Source: Candidatus Nitrosotalea okcheonensis
Lineage (GTDB): Archaea; Thermoproteota; Nitrososphaeria; Nitrososphaerales; Nitrosopumilaceae
Reading direction: 5' to 3'
Length of the DNA: 64,000 nucleotides
Assembly (NCBI RefSeq): GCF_900177045.1
Contig: NZ_LT841358.1
Coordinates: forward strand, 823,073 to 887,072
The position numbers and the translations under genes are program-made. This document shows, piece after piece, positions 48,059 through 63,979 of the stretch. The number at the start of each line of letters is the position of its first letter. Within the stretch, counting starts at the first letter, position 1. The notes below the pieces were generated by a model. The model ran no database searches. It worked only from the letters and a program-made list of their open reading frames with translations, and was not told the origin of the DNA.

Positions 48059-48073
48059 CAAAATGAAAATGGG
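48059..48073. repeat. Target-site duplication, left
   Basis: CAAAATGAAAATGGG, identical to 63895-63909. It borders the left end of the casposon and copies the end of the tRNA-Pro gene plus 11 bases after it. Confidence 0.9.
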
Positions 48074-48104
48074 GGGTATAGATGAGGACTCTGCGTTTGA
48101 CTAT
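48074..48104 (+). repeat. Casposon terminal inverted repeat, left
   Basis: 31 bp beginning GGGTATAGATGAGGACTCTG, matched exactly and inverted at 63864-63894. Weaker similarity continues inward for about 16 bp (10 of 16), as far as 48120. Confidence 0.9.
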
Positions 48105-51072: not shown

Positions 51073-51381
51073 ATGGCAGTAAAGAAAGCAATCTCATCCA
51101 TTGATCTTTTGATTCAAGAAAAGAAGGAGTTTAGAACAAAAGTAGTAGGTTCGGAGGAATTGCCACCTCTCATTCAAGGTGATATTATCAATCGATTTGA
51201 TAGAGCAATGTGGTCTATGTTACAAGGAGACATTGAATGGTTACAGGCAATAAAAAGACAACTTTTGCCAGACCAACACAGAACAAAGATAGTTTGCAGA
51301 CATCCAAAGAAGGATCATGATACTGATGGCAGTGGTCAGAAATACTGTATGAATTGTAATGCAAATTTGCCCAGTTTATAG
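51073..51381 (+). CDS. Small protein with zinc-ribbon-like tail
   Basis: 102 residues. Helical N-terminal region (SSIDLLIQEKKEFRTKVVGS) and a C-terminal CRHPKKDHDTDGSGQKYCMN then C, i.e. C-x-H...C-x-x-C spacing for metal binding. No family recognised. 53 bp after the AbrB-PIN fusion, maybe same transcript. Confidence 0.55.
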   Translation: MAVKKAISSIDLLIQEKKEFRTKVVGSEELPPLIQGDIINRFDRAMWSMLQGDIEWLQAIKRQLLPDQHRTKIVCRHPKKDHDTDGSGQKYCMNCNANLPSL

Positions 51382-52090: not shown

Positions 52091-52220
52091 TTACCGATAG
52101 TTGAGGAATAGTTACCGACAGTTTACAAGTTTCGATGATTCTTTTACCGACAGTTTACAAGTTTCGATGATTCTTTTACCGACAGTTTACAAGTTTCGAT
52201 GATTCTAGTATCGATAGTTT
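52091..52220. repeat. 32-bp tandem repeat, three exact units plus decayed ends
   Basis: Units start at 52112, 52144 and 52176 with period 32 (TTACCGACAGTTTACAAGTT then TCGATGATTCTT). Only the last base of unit 3 differs. Decayed starts lie at 52091 (TTACCGATAGTT) and 52208 (GTATCGATAGTTT). There are no spacers, so it is not a CRISPR array. It could be a replication origin with iterons or an operator. Confidence 0.9.
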
Positions 52221-54758: not shown

Positions 54759-55988
54759 TTAATCTTTATTAAATTTTAACAAACTTTTATCGTAAAATTT
54801 AACTTTTTTACCATCTTGTATGTTCTTTTTCATGTACCAAAGCGTAGATTTGTTGATTCCAAGTCTTTTCCTCTCATCAGGCGTCATTTTCAGTATTTTC
54901 CCTTTAAAATCCAAAGTATCCTCGTTTTTAATTTTAAATTCTGGAATTTTAAAATCAATTTTATCACTTTTATCAGCTATTAAATTTGCATAGTCTTGAA
55001 TTTTATAAAATAAAACATTTTCATAGGTGTAATTCTTGCCTTTAAACGGGGCTTTTAAATTAAAATTATTTTTAATTTTTAAAATTAATGCCTTGGCAGT
55101 TGACTCTTTTAATCTTATATTATAATTCTCTGTCACAATAAAATCTGATTTCTTCAACTTGGGCTTGCTGTCAAGTAATTGGATAACTGAATAATCTACA
55201 ATCCATCGAAATAACTCCTGAAAGTCATAGACTAACGGAGTTTTAGCATATGCTAACTCGTGCAACAAGCCAATAGTTGGGTCTAAACCAATAGAGTTTA
55301 ATGACTTTTTAACTTCTGACTCTAAAATGGCATATCCGTAATTTAACAAGGCATTAATTTCATCGGATGCATTGGCATTCCACGAGTTAGACTTGTTCAT
55401 TCTTCCCACGAATTTAAAATCAGGCGCCAATTCTGTAACTAATTTTTTAAATTGATCAAGATAAATTTGGGCAATCCGACCTTCAAAATTCATTAATTTT
55501 TTCAATTTATCTGAAATTGTGCCTGTTTGATCTTTAAAATTTAAATTATTAAATTCATTGTTAAATTGTTTATTAAATTTATTAAAATTTAAAACATTAT
55601 AAAATCTTGATAATTCTTTAATTAAATTCAATGAACTTGTTATTTTGCTATTAACAATTTCAATGGCAATTTTAAACCTGAACTCGTTGTCAAGATACTT
55701 TTGGTACTGTTTTATTCTTACTTTACCTATTTTTGGCTCTTGTGGGAGGGTTACTCCTAGCAGATTCCCATTCCAATTTAACATCGTGAGATTGACATCG
55801 TGTTTTAAAAGCCACCTCATGGACTCGAATGTTATGCTACCAGAATGTCCATCTACTACTATGCTATCATGATCAATTTGATGTGGATAAAACTCTAGTT
55901 TCTCATTTTTTAACTTGTTTTGAATGACTAGTTTTCGTTTTTCTACATTGATTGATGTACCAAAGCCTGAAATTAATAATGGATTCAT
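54759..55988 (-). CDS. cas1: Casposase (Cas1 homologue with C-terminal HTH)
   Basis: 409 residues. The N-terminal beta region (VVDGHSGSITFESMRWLLKH then VNLTMLNWNGNLLGV) and helical domain are Cas1-type. Catalytic metal ligands: E223 (AILESEV), H243 (IGLLHELAY) and D255/E258 (VYDFQEL). A C-terminal HTH at about 365-395 (PDERKRLGINKSTLWYMKKN) is the casposase tail lacking in CRISPR Cas1 and very like the end of the polymerase. No Cas2, Cas4 or CRISPR array is nearby. Cas1 here inserts the element. Very high AT with TTTAAAAT runs; codon use is more AT-biased than neighbours. It overlaps the upstream HTH gene by 4 bp. Confidence 0.95.
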   Translation of the reverse strand: MNPLLISGFGTSINVEKRKLVIQNKLKNEKLEFYPHQIDHDSIVVDGHSGSITFESMRWLLKHDVNLTMLNWNGNLLGVTLPQEPKIGKVRIKQYQKYLDNEFRFKIAIEIVNSKITSSLNLIKELSRFYNVLNFNKFNKQFNNEFNNLNFKDQTGTISDKLKKLMNFEGRIAQIYLDQFKKLVTELAPDFKFVGRMNKSNSWNANASDEINALLNYGYAILESEVKKSLNSIGLDPTIGLLHELAYAKTPLVYDFQELFRWIVDYSVIQLLDSKPKLKKSDFIVTENYNIRLKESTAKALILKIKNNFNLKAPFKGKNYTYENVLFYKIQDYANLIADKSDKIDFKIPEFKIKNEDTLDFKGKILKMTPDERKRLGINKSTLWYMKKNIQDGKKVKFYDKSLLKFNKD

Positions 55989-56704
55989 TTTTTCTTGTCT
56001 CCTATGTGATATTTGAGAATATATGGTCTAGTATGTGGAGTTACACTATCTTGAATCCATATGGCATCAATCGCTTTTTCTTTTTTCCACAGTTTTCCCC
56101 ATTTTTCATAAGAGTCATTTTTTACCATTTTGACTATTTCATCATAGTTTAGCGATATGCCCAAAATGATACTTCCTGTTTTATCGTCTCGTAAATCCAG
56201 TTTTTTGTTTTGAATATTTTCAAGTATGTGACGGATAAGTTCATTTTGAATTCTAATCAAATACTCTTTAGAGATTAGCTGAAAAAGATCAATGCTCTGA
56301 TCTACAGCAACATGAACCGTGCTAGGCCAAAACAATGGTTCTGGTTTACCAGATTTTGGTACTGGAGCCATTGGGACTCCACCTGAAAGATATTTCCCGC
56401 CTCGCTCCTTTATCTCGGTTAAAATATTCTGTAACAGAAAAATTTCATTATATGCAGATTCTCCCTTTTCTGTTAGCTTGTAGGCTTCGTTTTCATTATG
56501 AATTGTTTTTGTAATCAATCCATTTTTTCGGAGTAATTTTAAGTGCTTACTTAGAGTAGTATGAGAAAATAATACTGCATTTTCCAGTTCTTTGAATGTT
56601 TTAGGAGATTTTTCAAGCGCTAGAAGTATGTCTTCTTGATGTTTTCCCTCATCATATTTCTGCTGTCTAGCTGTATATTGCACCATTGACTTGAGTTTAC
56701 TCAA
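55985..56704 (-). CDS. Winged-helix protein paired with casposase
   Basis: 239 residues from TTG 56704 (ATG 56686 is the alternative). N-terminal ArsR/MarR-like winged helix: ILLALEKSPKTFKELENAVL then FSHTTLSKHLKLLRKNGLIT and YKLTEKGESAYNEIF. The remainder is unknown, with PVPKSGKPEPLFWPSTVHVA in the middle. It precedes cas1 by a 4-bp overlap and is divergent from the AbrB-HTH-HNH-polymerase operon (42 bp between starts), so it may regulate both. Confidence 0.75.
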   Translation of the reverse strand: MSKLKSMVQYTARQQKYDEGKHQEDILLALEKSPKTFKELENAVLFSHTTLSKHLKLLRKNGLITKTIHNENEAYKLTEKGESAYNEIFLLQNILTEIKERGGKYLSGGVPMAPVPKSGKPEPLFWPSTVHVAVDQSIDLFQLISKEYLIRIQNELIRHILENIQNKKLDLRDDKTGSIILGISLNYDEIVKMVKNDSYEKWGKLWKKEKAIDAIWIQDSVTPHTRPYILKYHIGDKKK

Positions 56705-56929: not shown

Positions 56930-57407
56930 AAATTGGAAAGTAGATTTAGATCTACTCACTCCAAAACAACTTGCAAAATATCATGATTCGATTGAAGCAT
57001 TATACTTGATACGTCATGGTTCTTTACTAAAAAAAGCATCAAAAATAACTAGAGTTTCTGTTTCAACGATAAAAAAATACGTTGGTTCTACATTAAGAGT
57101 AAATAATCGTAAAACAATTGCAAGAAAATCTGATAGTCTATTACGTAAAATGAGCATCTATGAAAACGGAAAAGAAGTTTTCATTCAAGTAAAAGGCAGA
57201 AAAAAAGCATCACTTATTGGCAAGTATCATAGTGCAATTGGAAGACTAGATCAAAATGATATGACCAAATTACAGTCGTTCCAAGAAATAAAAATCAGAG
57301 ACATTAAAGGCAAAGTACACAAATTCGAAATCAATGTTGACAAGATAAAGCAAATTCTTGAACGTATTGAAGAACCAGAATTCTTCGATATTTACAGGAG
57401 TAATTGA
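56913..57407 (+). CDS. HTH-containing protein
   Basis: 164 residues. IRHGSLLKKASKITRVSVST then IKKYVGSTL is an HTH resembling recombinase or resolvase-type helices near residue 40-70. The rest is basic and helical. It ends one base before the HNH gene's ATG region, so translation is coupled. Such HTH proteins are known in casposons but their role is open. Confidence 0.65.
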   Translation: MKRRNENWKVDLDLLTPKQLAKYHDSIEALYLIRHGSLLKKASKITRVSVSTIKKYVGSTLRVNNRKTIARKSDSLLRKMSIYENGKEVFIQVKGRKKASLIGKYHSAIGRLDQNDMTKLQSFQEIKIRDIKGKVHKFEINVDKIKQILERIEEPEFFDIYRSN

Positions 57408-57408
57408 A

Positions 57409-57744
57409 ATGAAAGATTACTTTACCAAAATATTAGGATTAATTGCAGAAAAGACATGGACTGATAAATTTGCAACAGGACAAGGATTTTGCATAATCTG
57501 TGGGCACGATGATCCATTAGATCTGGAATATCATCATGTTGCAGGGAAAAACAACAGTTCTCTTGTTGTCTCATTGTGTAGAAATTGTCATGGTAAAGTT
57601 TCAAGGAAACAACAAATTTCATGGCCAGATGAATGGTCAAGTAAAGACAACAGTCTCAAGTACAAAGAAGGATTGATGTTAAGAGGGCTCTCAGACCTTA
57701 TGCGTGTAAAATCTGATCATATTCTTCATGGTGATACTGTATGA
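57409..57744 (+). CDS. HNH endonuclease
   Basis: 111 residues from ATG 57409, preceded by GGAG at about 57396-57399. CIICGHDDPLDLEYHHVAGK then SSLVVSLCRNCHGKVSRKQQ is an HNH core with CxxC, HH and a second CxxC. HNH nucleases are a constant casposon gene; they may nick the ends or the host. It overlaps the polymerase by 4 bp. Confidence 0.85.
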   Translation: MKDYFTKILGLIAEKTWTDKFATGQGFCIICGHDDPLDLEYHHVAGKNNSSLVVSLCRNCHGKVSRKQQISWPDEWSSKDNSLKYKEGLMLRGLSDLMRVKSDHILHGDTV

Positions 57745-60464
57745 ATGAAGAAACCATCGCCATTCGTGCCTACACCGTGCCCAAAAAGAGTAATTTGGGT
57801 AAAAATAAACCCAAATCATACAAAAGACCAGATGATAACGCAAATCCCACATTTGATAGGGTTCTAGTCTTTGATACAGAAACTACTACAGACCTATATC
57901 AGAACCTCAAATTCGGGTATTTTGAAACTTATCAGTATGGCGTTCTTGAAGAAAAAGGCCTCTTTTACGATCCCATAATTGTAAAACCAAAAGAATTGGC
58001 AATACTGGAGTCATACTCTAATGAAAACAATATTTCATTGTACACACTAGAAGATTTTCGTAAAATATTTCTTGGTGAAGTTTATGATCTTCAGACATTA
58101 TGTATTGGATTTAACTTGCCATTCGATCTTACAAGAATTGTATTAAAATCAACTAATGCTAGAAAAAGAAAAGATGCATTTTCACTTGAACTTTCCAAGA
58201 ATCTAAAATATCCAAGATTATATGTCACACATGCTACAAACACGTTATCATTTATCGAGTGGGCAAATTCAATGATATGGAACGGGTTCAAAGGGAATTT
58301 TGTTGATCTTCGTACCTTGTGCCATGCCCTTACCGATACAAAACATTCTCTTGAAAGTGCATGTAAAGCATTTGATACAGAATTTCAAAAATACAAAGCA
58401 AAAGAACATGGAGTTATCAACACTACATACATTAATTATTGCATTAACGATGTAAAATCTACCTATTCACTATACCAAAATACGAAAAAAGAATTTGATA
58501 CTTACGGATTGAAAATTCCTGTAATTAGAGCCTACACACCTGCATCAATTGGAAAAGAATTTCTCAAGAAAATGGGTGTTAAACCATTCTTTGATAAAAG
58601 CCCAAAGTTCTCAAATGAAATAATTGGAAATATAATGACGGGATATTTTGGTGGAAGGACAGAATGCAAGATTAGAAAGACTCCTGTCAAAGTGGATGTA
58701 CTTGACTTTCTTAGTATGTATCCTACCGTTTGTACACTACAAAATCTTTGGAAATTCGTAATTGCAGATCATATAGAGCACGTTGAGGCAACCCAAGAAA
58801 TAATCCAATTTGTAGACGGAGTCACTTTGAGAGATATCCAAAACAAGGAAAACTGAACAAAATTACAGGCAATTGTGCTTGTAGAACCTCAAGAAGATGT
58901 GCTTCCCATCAGGGCAAAATATGGTCAAAAACACGTCTGGAATATAGGCACAAGCCACGTTTCTTCTAAAACGCCCCTTTGGTACAGTCTTGCTGATGTA
59001 ATTGCCTCAAAACTATACACAGGAAGAACACCCAAGATATTGCGTGCTATTAGATTTGTTCCAATAGGCACACAAAAGAGACTAGAAAAAATAGACATTC
59101 ATGGAGTCAAGATCAATCCTTACACTCAAGATCTATTCAAAGAATTAATCGAATATAGACAAACCTTGAAAAAGAAACGTGATGGTTTTACAGAAACTGA
59201 TTCTAAATATTCCTATTATGACAGAAAACAAAACGTAGTCAAGATTATAACAAATGCAATAAGCTATGGAATTTTTGTTGAAATAAACACTTTGGAAGAA
59301 TCATACAAGGTTCCAATTGATGTCTATGGTCTGTATCATTTTCAACAAGAAAAAACCAAGATTGAAAAATCTGGGTTTATGTTCAATCCCATAATTGCTG
59401 TGTGTATAACATCTGCATCAAGATTATTGCTTGCAGTAACGGAAATTTTGCTATCAAATAATGGTTCTAGTCATGCATATTGTGATACAGATTCTATGAT
59501 GGTACATTCAGAGCATACAAAAGAAATTCAAGAATTCTTCCAGTCATTAAACCCATATAGTTTTAATACGGAGATATTCAAACTAGAAAGAAAAGATGTT
59601 TGGTTTTATGGAATATCTGCAAAAAGATACTGTCTTTATACAATAGAAGATAATAAAATTATAATCGAAAAAGAAAATTATTCATCTCATGGTCTGGGGC
59701 ATCTTTTAGATCCATTTGCTAATGACTCCGACAAAAAAGATGACTGGCACAAAATAATTTGGCATGATATTCTCGGTTTGCATTATGGAACTGTATCCAT
59801 GGAACAACTGATTGAAAAATATGAAAACAAGTATGCCTTGTCTCAACTTTCAATTTCAACTCCTAGAATACTTGATAGATTAAGAGAATTTAACGAGGGT
59901 AAAGACTATCATCATCAAATCAAACCGTCAAATTTCTCTCTAGTGGGATTTGCAAATGCCACTGATGAGAAAAATTCTCAAATCAAGCCAATTGCGCCCT
60001 ATAGGAATCCTGCAAAACATGCAGTCTATGACTATTTTGTGGATTATTATGACAAATCTAGGCACAAATTAAGAGGAAAGCAGTACTGGAAGACCTTTTG
60101 GAGTACATTTAGGGATTATCTTGGTCATCATGAATCAAAATTTGATGGCAATACTGGAATATTAGCAAGAAAGTATGTCGATGTCATTGGAATAGTACAC
60201 ATTGGAAAGGAAAGCAACAATTTGGAAGAATCAGAGGTTTTAGGAACTAGTTCGGATAGTTATGAAATCTATGAGAATATTGAAAACATAGAACAAAGAT
60301 TCATTAAGATTGCAAAAGATGTTTTGAAATTAAACCCAAGAGATGTTAAAAAATTTGGAATATCAAAGCAGACTTTGTGGAATGTAAAAAGAAAAATAAA
60401 ATTGAATCAGTATAATAAAATTTCAAATAAAATTAAATCACAAATTTTGTGTACCATTAGTTAG
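57741..60464 (+). pseudogene. polB: Protein-primed family B DNA polymerase with in-frame TGA
   Basis: About 907 codons with one stop (TGA at 58854-58856). Exonuclease: FDTETT (about 45-47), NLPFD (about 124-128) and YCINDVKS (233-237). Polymerase: DFLSMYP (about 321), KIITNAISYGIF (about 502) and YCDTDSMMVH (about 579). After the stop the same frame resumes with TKLQAIVLVEPQEDVLPIRA, so a TGG Trp codon became TGA, or it is read through. A C-terminal HTH (LNPRDVKKFGISKQTLWNVK) matches the casposase tail. Would copy the casposon by protein priming. Listed as pseudogene because of the stop. Confidence 0.85.
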
Positions 60465-60492: not shown

Positions 60493-61230
60493 TTAAAATT
60501 CAACCGGGAATCTAGGAGTAAAAGTTTGTTCTAACTCTGTTACATTTTTTATTCTATCCATTCTAAAACCTCGAATGGCATTTTTTCGTATATCCCATGC
60601 AAAAAAGAGTACGGTTCCTCCTTTTCCTCTATGTCTAAAGCTGTATGGTTCTACAACTCTTGGCTCCACAGACCCATCTTCTTCACGTGCTTCAATCCAC
60701 ATCAGCCTACGTTTTTGCCCTGTATGTTGAATAATCCGAGTAATGCTTTCGTGATACAATATTGCCTTTACATATGCAAGTATATCTACTGTAAATTCAT
60801 CTTTCATAATTGTCAAGTCTAATCCGCATACTAGACCCAAGATGCCATTTTCATAACCATTCGTGAAATCTGCATATTTTATGTCGATTATTATTGATGG
60901 GATTTCACATTTCTCTTTTAATACTAGGAGAATTCTTACTGAGTTATCTTTCAGTTTCTTCATTACTGCCGAGGAAAGTTCTTTTTTAACCCAATTGGAA
61001 TTAACAGAATTTGTTGATAATATTATTATCAAATCTGTCATTTTACCAAGAGCAGAATCAATCTTTCCTACTATAGAATCTCCAACTTTAATTTCCCACC
61101 TATCAAAGAACATTGGAAATTTGTATTTTGTTAAATCAATGGCTAGATTTTCTACAAACTCTTTGTCTGTTGAGGAATAACTAAGAAAACCAAATCTCTC
61201 TTTTCTAGTAGACATAATATCTCGTGCCAT
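60493..61230 (-). CDS. TIR-WYL fusion protein
   Basis: 245 residues. TIR domain 1-135: FLSYSSTDKEFVENLAIDL, FDRWEIKVGDSIVGKIDSAL and SNWVKKELSSA, with E84 at the NADase position. The C-terminal part (about 175-240) has the WYL pattern: VEPYSFRHRGKGGTVLFFAW and GFRMDRIKNVTELEQTFTPR. TIR enzymes cut NAD+ in antiphage and plant defence; WYL domains bind nucleic acid or nucleotides and often regulate defence genes. No Thoeris ThsA, SAVED or other partner is seen. ATG 61215 is an alternative. Convergent with the polymerase. Confidence 0.75.
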   Translation of the reverse strand: MARDIMSTRKERFGFLSYSSTDKEFVENLAIDLTKYKFPMFFDRWEIKVGDSIVGKIDSALGKMTDLIIILSTNSVNSNWVKKELSSAVMKKLKDNSVRILLVLKEKCEIPSIIIDIKYADFTNGYENGILGLVCGLDLTIMKDEFTVDILAYVKAILYHESITRIIQHTGQKRRLMWIEAREEDGSVEPRVVEPYSFRHRGKGGTVLFFAWDIRKNAIRGFRMDRIKNVTELEQTFTPRFPVEF

Positions 61231-61235
61231 AATAT

Positions 61236-61283
61236 GTTATTAAATAATAACAGTATGAAGATTTAGTATCTTAAACTTAAGAT
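61236..61283. promoter_or_regulatory. Two 7-2-7 palindromes before the TIR-WYL gene
   Basis: GTTATTAAATAATAAC (61236-61251) and ATCTTAAACTTAAGAT (61268-61283), both 7-base arms with a 2-base centre, lie 5 and 37 bp upstream of the TIR-WYL start and also in front of the rightward membrane gene at 61371. A dimer-binding site for the WYL part is possible. Confidence 0.55.
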
Positions 61284-62004: not shown

Positions 62005-62367
62005 TTATTTTGCAAACTGGTATCTATGTTCAATTTTTTGTTCTGGAATTTCTTTAATGTTAAAGAAAATCTTCTTTCCATGTTGTTTTGCATATTCTAA
62101 TTCAAGATTTGCACCACGTGATGGTGCCAAAAGTAGTAATGCATCGCAATCCTCTAACCACGCATGATCCATTTCTATGTAATCTTCCCATTTCAAACCT
62201 TGTTTTGTTTCTTGACTTCGTAATTCTATCCAGTGAGTCAAATGTGGAAGATACGGATAATGTCCTTTTTTATAAATCGCAATAGCCGCATCAATAGCAT
62301 TATTGACATTCTTCTGTATTTCTAAATCAGTAGATGCAGTATAAGGCCCTGCAACATATATTTTCAT
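62005..62367 (-). CDS. Nucleoside deoxyribosyltransferase-like (DUF4406) protein
   Basis: 120 residues from ATG 62367: MKIYVAGPYTASTDLEIQKN then YPYLPHLTHWIELRSQETKQ and MDHAWLEDCDALLLLAPSRG with NLELEYAKQHGKKIFF. This is the NDT/DUF4406 Rossmann-like fold; GPY and SRGAxxE are the substrate sites. These enzymes move or hydrolyse deoxyribose or NAD-type glycosides. Near a TIR gene it may act in a nucleotide-based defence, but it could be metabolic. Convergent with the membrane gene. Confidence 0.7.
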   Translation of the reverse strand: MKIYVAGPYTASTDLEIQKNVNNAIDAAIAIYKKGHYPYLPHLTHWIELRSQETKQGLKWEDYIEMDHAWLEDCDALLLLAPSRGANLELEYAKQHGKKIFFNIKEIPEQKIEHRYQFAK

Positions 62368-62502
62368 ATTGTCTGCCATCATGTAAGAAAGTATCAAAAA
62401 CCGGTATATAATGAATAGTTTCTTTAGGATGTGAACTATCAGTCAAACTAAAGTTCTTTGTATTAAGAAACCTGTAAAATATCTATGTAGTAAAAATTGG
62501 AT

Positions 62503-63863: not shown

Positions 63864-63894
63864 ATAGTCAAACGCAGAGTCCTCATCTATACCC
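63864..63894 (-). repeat. Casposon terminal inverted repeat, right
   Basis: Exact inverted match to 48074-48104; ends TATACCC at 63888-63894. Weaker match continues inward to about 63848. Confidence 0.9.
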
Positions 63895-63909
63895 CAAAAT
63901 GAAAATGGG
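63895..63909. repeat. Target-site duplication, right
   Basis: CAAAATGAAAATGGG; identical to 48059-48073. The last four bases (63906-63909) belong to the tRNA-Pro 3' end. Confidence 0.9.
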
Positions 63910-63979
63910 ATCGGCCGGATTTGAACCGACGACCTCAGGTACCCAAAACCCGAATCATGCCAAGCTAGACCACGATCCC
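63906..63979 (-). tRNA. tRNA-Pro (anticodon UGG)
   Basis: 74 bases. On the minus strand the acceptor GGGATCG pairs with CGATCCC plus discriminator A; the anticodon loop is TTTGGGT in a CGGGT/ACCTG stem (TGG anticodon); the T arm is GTCGG-TTCAAAT-CCGGC. CCA is not encoded and no intron is seen. Its last four bases are inside the duplicated target, so the tRNA is intact after insertion. Confidence 0.95.

Follow-up and report, generated by a model that had tools for sequence, protein, structure and literature searches.

The window, that is, the whole 64,000-nucleotide stretch of Candidatus Nitrosotalea okcheonensis contig NZ_LT841358.1 analyzed here, contains a casposon of 15,821 bp bounded by perfect 31-bp inverted repeats and a 15-bp target-site duplication. 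Between these ends lie genes for Cas1, a winged-HTH protein, an HNH-like protein and a family B DNA polymerase (PolB), together with a gene whose product joins a TIR domain to a WYL domain (Table 1). The inverted repeats and the duplication flank the TIR-WYL gene on both sides, which confirms an earlier note, made from the sequence alone, that had placed it on a casposon, and rules out a location outside the element.

Table 1 Features of the casposon and of its TIR-WYL gene (positions in the window)
Feature	Position	Strand	Evidence or remark
TIR-WYL gene, 245 aa	60493..61230	(-)	intact ORF
TIR domain, residues 13-137	60820..61194	(-)	Pfam TIR_2 1.4e-22; PDB sequence matches BtTir, AbTir
E84 codon, catalytic-type Glu of W80-x3-E84	60979..60981	(-)	alignment to AbTir chains
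WYL domain, residues 158-245, basic R191/K216/R220/R223/R226	60496..60759	(-)	Pfam WYL, AF2, Foldseek
Left terminal inverted repeat	48074..48104	(+)	
Right terminal inverted repeat	63864..63894	(-)	
Target-site duplication, left copy CAAAATGAAAATGGG	48059..48073	(+)	
Target-site duplication, right copy CAAAATGAAAATGGG, overlaps 3' end of tRNA-Pro	63895..63909	(+)	
tRNA-Pro(TGG), insertion target	63906..63979	(-)	ARAGORN, Rfam
cas1 (casposase), 409 aa	54759..55988	(-)	Pfam Cas_Cas1 1.7e-56
Winged-HTH protein	55985..56704	(-)	Pfam HTH_5 1.2e-7
HNH-like protein	57358..57744	(+)	weak Pfam HNHc_6/HNH_5 matches, below cut-off
Family B DNA polymerase (PolB)	57741..60464	(+)	in-frame TGA at 58854-58856

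The polymerase gene is one reading frame broken by a single TGA, and its counterparts in the casposons of two other genomes of the genus, G180 and G200, are uninterrupted at 896-898 aa; the HNH-like gene occupies the same position in both of these elements. The window element is very probably NitNCS1-C1, a family 2 casposon of Ca. Nitrosotalea okcheonensis CS published in 2019, because all of the features named in its published description are present: insertion at tRNA-Pro, a fragmented PolB (already reported there), Cas1, HNH, HTH and a WYL protein (PMC6563490). The main text of that paper names the WYL-domain protein and does not report its TIR half.

The TIR-WYL gene stands alone within the casposon, converging with PolB on one side and diverging from a gene for a membrane protein on the other, so it has no obligatory partner there. 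Directly upstream of its start codon we noted by eye, in AT-rich DNA, a palindrome (TGTTATT-AAAT-AATAACA, 61235-61252) that is a possible operator of the gene.

Domain composition of the TIR-WYL protein

The earlier note had described a TIR-WYL fusion within 245 residues, and this description holds: both Pfam domains score above their curated cut-offs in the window protein and again in a homolog with 69% identity. On the TIR side, the matches are to TIR_2 (PF13676; E = 1.4e-22, residues 15-130) and to TIR (E = 1.4e-10), and PADLOC TIR models cover residues 15-139. The closest solved TIRs by sequence (phmmer) are BtTir (3.6e-10) and AbTir (6.5e-9). An AF2 model of the full-length protein, built from a two-sequence alignment, reached a pLDDT of 47, too poor for reading domain arrangement or contacts, and the best Foldseek matches of this low-confidence model were likewise TIR domains.

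Residues W80-VKK-E84 form a WxxxE motif, and W80 and E84 are kept in both TIR-WYL members. E84 aligns with the position of the catalytic glutamate of AbTir, E208 of its WxxxE motif, which is needed for NADase activity (PMC11374754); the NADase-type motif that the earlier note had read around E84 is therefore upheld, and by this motif the TIR half is a predicted NADase. The two members differ at position 43, which is D43 in the window protein and A43 in the homolog. Alignment and the published work on AbTir suggest that D43 corresponds to AbTir D167, a residue important for activity (PMC11374754), so the two copies may differ in activity.

The C-terminal half matches Pfam WYL (PF13280) at residues 172-231 with 28.2 bits against a cut-off of 21.8, and PADLOC WYL models match residues 162-241. 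Structure prediction had been proposed in the earlier note as the check on a WYL fold in this region. When residues 157-245 were modeled in isolation by AF2 from a three-sequence alignment, the result was a confident WYL barrel (pLDDT 89.6), with one helix followed by five strands in the manner of an Sm-like SH3 barrel. Foldseek agreed: the best 27 PDB matches of this model were all WYL proteins (PafBC, BrxR, CapW and DriD), with TM-scores by query length of 0.64-0.79, and among them are ssDNA-bound structures of DriD and, in one entry, CapW.

PafBC is recovered at the sequence level as well, with a profile built on the WYL segment (E = 3.5e-4). In PafB, mutation has identified R181, R204, R208, R211 and R214, along with Y196 of the tripeptide, as necessary for ssDNA binding (PMC11804915). 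These residues align with R191, K216, R220, R223, R226 and F209 of TIR-WYL, respectively, and all five basic positions are thus arginine or lysine. The 4-3-3 spacing of K216, R220, R223 and R226 recurs in DdPif1 (R491, R495, R498 and R501), and WYL domains of this Pif1 type bind ssDNA without a WCX domain (PMC9964779). The W-Y-L tripeptide position reads L-F-F in TIR-WYL; across the superfamily, four basic residues are conserved and the tripeptide itself is not strongly so (Makarova 2014, PMC4012209). No HTH was matched by Pfam in TIR-WYL, and based on Pfam and AF2 the chain ends directly after the WYL barrel, so that WCX is absent. In PafBC, the WYL and WCX domains form between them the tunnel in which ssDNA is bound. 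From its fold and contact residues, the WYL half is predicted to bind single-stranded nucleic acid, with ssDNA favored.

Distribution and conservation of the fusion

Among 250 genomes of the family we found one full-length homolog of TIR-WYL, the 69% identical protein mentioned above, encoded in a Nitrosopumilus MAG (contig NZ_JANQTA010000001.1); its WYL domain scores 28.7 bits (cut-off 21.8), and all other matches in these genomes cover the TIR part only. When profiles were run against the class (400 genomes) and the phylum (398 genomes), the same two proteins were the only full-length matches, and the WYL half alone matched nothing further in the 400 genomes of the class. In the order, Pfam WYL is present in only 4 of the 201 genomes searched, and two of these four cases are the TIR-WYL proteins. 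A peptide-pattern scan of 84,980 GTDB genomes and 2.9 million viral contigs recovered only the Nitrosopumilus copy, although such scans see close relatives only and distant bacterial TIR-WYL fusions lie outside their reach. Among plasmids, the TIR domain was matched by 32 records, none of which covered >80% of the query. The longest of these TIR matches, a protein from a Nostoc plasmid, was rejected as a further member, as its ORF, read by eye, has no WYL C-terminus. The members found number two.

Between these two copies, dS is about 2.2 (saturated) and dN is 0.23, with dN/dS of about 0.1 or less in the TIR part and in the WYL part. Identity is 74% across the TIR domain, 43% across the linker and 78% over the last 59 residues. 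Selection maintains both halves and leaves the linker to drift, the pattern of a working two-domain protein. Because dN/dS is about 0.1 in both halves, we conclude that the fusion is real and maintained. A chance match to WYL was also considered and is ruled out by scores above the Pfam cut-off in both members, the agreement of AF2 with Foldseek, and purifying selection.

The surroundings of the homolog differ from those of the window gene. Neither cas1 nor PolB was found within the 55 kb examined around it. Instead, the genes immediately upstream of the homolog are two for ThsB-type TIRs (ThsB_TIR, 5.9e-22 and 1e-19) and one for a SLATT/DUF4231 2TM protein, the end of which overlaps the TIR-WYL gene by 8 bases; SIR2 and PLD-type genes are also near. 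These neighbors point to defense and perhaps to partnership with a membrane effector in that genome, with the caveat that two members give thin gene-neighborhood support. The two adjacent ThsB-type paralogs and the SLATT 2TM gene coupled to TIR-WYL (L015, 9283-10594) form a cluster that is possibly a Thoeris-like system without ThsA.

Comparison with known systems and possible function

Fusions of TIR with other recognition domains are well known, and TIR effectors normally depend for their activation on a second protein, on a receptor fused to them or on a cyclic nucleotide. The TIR-WYL pair had not been known to the earlier note as described, and the literature searched agrees: no paper in it contains TIR-WYL or WYL-TIR, and none of the papers listed for TIR domains or NADases mentions casposons. 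The parts are known and the pairing is new. We regard TIR-WYL as a new combination and not a new kind of thing, because the element and its WYL protein were published in 2019 and WYL in fusion with other effector domains had already been described in 2014 (Makarova 2014, PMC4012209). The main text of that 2014 catalog lists nucleases, helicases and a nucleotidyltransferase as fusion partners and no TIR.

By sequence, the nearest WYL module is the C-terminal WYL of AbiEii-type nucleotidyltransferases from bacterial plasmids (E = 1e-7), with which TIR-WYL has the residues EPYS-x-R ... FTPR-VE in common. In the AbiEii/AbiGii nucleotidyltransferase-WYL proteins of Rhizobium and Thiodictyon plasmids, WYL is likewise C-terminal to a conflict effector, which suggests the same module behind a different conflict effector. 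AbiEii, however, combines a nucleotidyltransferase effector with the AbiEi antitoxin, whereas TIR-WYL carries a TIR domain and has no AbiEi-type gene adjacent; PADLOC does not make it an AbiEii member, as model PDLC02317 is matched by the C-terminal 58 residues only, and through no more than the last 57 positions of the model itself. PafBC, DriD, CapW and BrxR have the WYL fold and ssDNA-contact residues in common with TIR-WYL, but their output is DNA binding, whereas TIR-WYL lacks HTH and WCX and its output is the TIR. TIR-SAVED, TIR-STING, TIR-NLR and RT-TIR resemble TIR-WYL in placing TIR and a recognition domain in one chain, although the recognition part there is SAVED, STING, NLR or a reverse transcriptase rather than WYL. 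Accordingly, the SAVED-TIR model of PADLOC matches TIR-WYL by its TIR part only (residues 15-102), and no CD-NTase was matched among the casposon proteins scanned. The TIR half also bears a weak but significant likeness to ThsB of Thoeris (PF08937, 1.2e-4), but it differs in its main TIR family, TIR_2, and in the extra WYL domain, and no ThsA was matched among the proteins scanned around the gene, including those of the casposon.

Our preferred reading, to which we assign a probability of about 45%, is that TIR-WYL is a single-chain immune sensor-effector carried as casposon cargo, in which WYL binds single-stranded nucleic acid and the TIR NADase is thereby switched on. An infected or damaged cell would yield single-stranded nucleic acid, most likely ssDNA, that enters the basic groove of WYL. 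Binding might gather several chains or release the N-terminal TIRs, which could then pack into the dimeric or filamentous form that a TIR active site requires. E84-dependent cleavage of NAD+ would follow and would either starve the cell into dormancy or death or supply a partner with a cyclic-ADPR-type signal. The casposon would in this way shield its host, and hence itself, from viruses or rival elements. This sensor-effector model draws on the retention of both domains, the WxxxE motif, the WYL fold, the ssDNA-contact residues, selection, the lone gene in the casposon, the defense-like cluster around the homolog and the SIR2-type cargo of a related casposon; it is weakened by the absence of WCX, the L-F-F tripeptide, A43 in the homolog and the thin neighborhood support. 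A more ambitious version, which we consider doubtful, is one-protein immunity: WYL-bound ssDNA would directly gate the TIR NADase with no second messenger or separate sensor, and the protein would have been spread among archaea by mobile elements including casposons.

Were the sensor-effector model true, the 245-residue TIR-WYL would be about the smallest complete sensor-plus-effector, the role of WYL would move from transcription regulation to direct control of an NAD+-consuming enzyme, and a TIR immune gene would be added to the cargo of casposons, elements that are thought to be the origin of CRISPR adaptation. Work on PafBC, DriD and CapW has defined the contact residues, which makes the proposed ssDNA ligand directly testable.

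Other readings concern the ligand of WYL or the work done by the TIR. WYL could instead sense a small nucleotide, for instance one that neighboring ThsB-type TIRs produce (an ADP-ribose derivative or a cADPR isomer), or it could bind the product of its own TIR as feedback. The setting of the homolog, next to two ThsB_TIR genes and an overlapping SLATT 2TM gene, fits this reading, and a published prediction has WYL regulators responding to ADPr or cyclic nucleotides (PMC9503650). No ThsB, SLATT or SLOG gene accompanies the casposon copy, however, and where the ligand of a WYL domain has been solved it is ssDNA, whose contact residues are kept in TIR-WYL; on balance we consider a nucleotide ligand unlikely. 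WYL might also serve to target a substrate, holding RNA or ssDNA such that the TIR removes nicotinamide from NAD-capped RNA. Several TIRs, including an archaeal one, de-NAM NAD-RNA, and this activity correlates with positive charge near the TIR active site (PMC10937652); the WYL groove is basic. As the nucleic acid seen in solved WYL complexes is ssDNA, we give this proposal very little weight.

TIR-WYL might, on the other hand, serve the casposon rather than antiviral defense, by monitoring the single-stranded intermediates of the element and punishing its loss or runaway replication, or by regulating it. WYL proteins are mostly regulators (PMC4012209), and the gene has PolB on one side and the right end of a self-synthesizing element on the other. 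Yet TIR-WYL is absent from the nearest casposons and so is not core machinery, the 55 kb examined around the homolog show no casposon gene, and the protein has neither an HTH nor an adjacent antitoxin-like partner; a role in addiction or transposition control thus seems improbable. We hold it equally improbable that the TIR is non-enzymatic, acting only as an assembly scaffold with WYL as the binding or regulatory module, or that the gene is decaying cargo. A43, which replaces the D167-type aspartate of AbTir in the homolog, would be in keeping with a non-enzymatic TIR, and the interrupted PolB suggests that the casposon may be dying, but the ORF is intact, W80 and E84 are present in both members and dN/dS in the TIR half is about 0.1.

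Related casposons and the tRNA-Pro site

The casposons of G180 and G200 lie at the same tRNA-Pro as the window element, and their Cas1 proteins are 75-77% and 68-69% identical to its Cas1, respectively. Since TIR-WYL is missing from these two nearest relatives, it is optional cargo and not casposon machinery. The cargo of the G200 casposon includes a SIR2-type gene (PADLOC Aga_SIR2, 7.4e-23) and a gene that weakly resembles Mrr/PDDEXK, both located beyond cas1 (L072, 4321-7575), which suggests that casposons of this group carry interchangeable defense-like cargo.

Within the genus, the tRNA-Pro is apparently a hotspot for casposons. Casposon-like ends of the form '...TCT(T/A)TACCCC' were seen at the tRNA-Pro 3' end in several genomes (63895-63979 in the window; loci L083-L112), whereas the site is empty in others. 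In two members of the genus (L086 and L092), the flanking genes lie close to the tRNA-Pro with no casposon between, and in G205 (L117) only about 1 kb separates the flanking gene from the tRNA, with a casposon-like end present.

Three further observations were made within the window casposon. The gene at 62005-62397 encodes a DUF4406/DUF7768 protein (Pfam) that is nucleoside 2-deoxyribosyltransferase-like, and nucleoside-cleaving relatives of such proteins occur in anti-phage systems. A gene-poor stretch at 52112-52220 holds 3.4 tandem copies of a 32-bp unit, which are possibly iterons. Finally, a gene for a 102-aa protein at 51073-51381 has a counterpart near the opposite end of the G180 casposon (L071, 18294-18599), with 100% protein identity over 100 residues and 94% DNA identity, while Cas1 and PolB of the two casposons are only 63-75% identical. 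The presence of this near-identical gene in two diverged casposons reflects either recent exchange or strong constraint.
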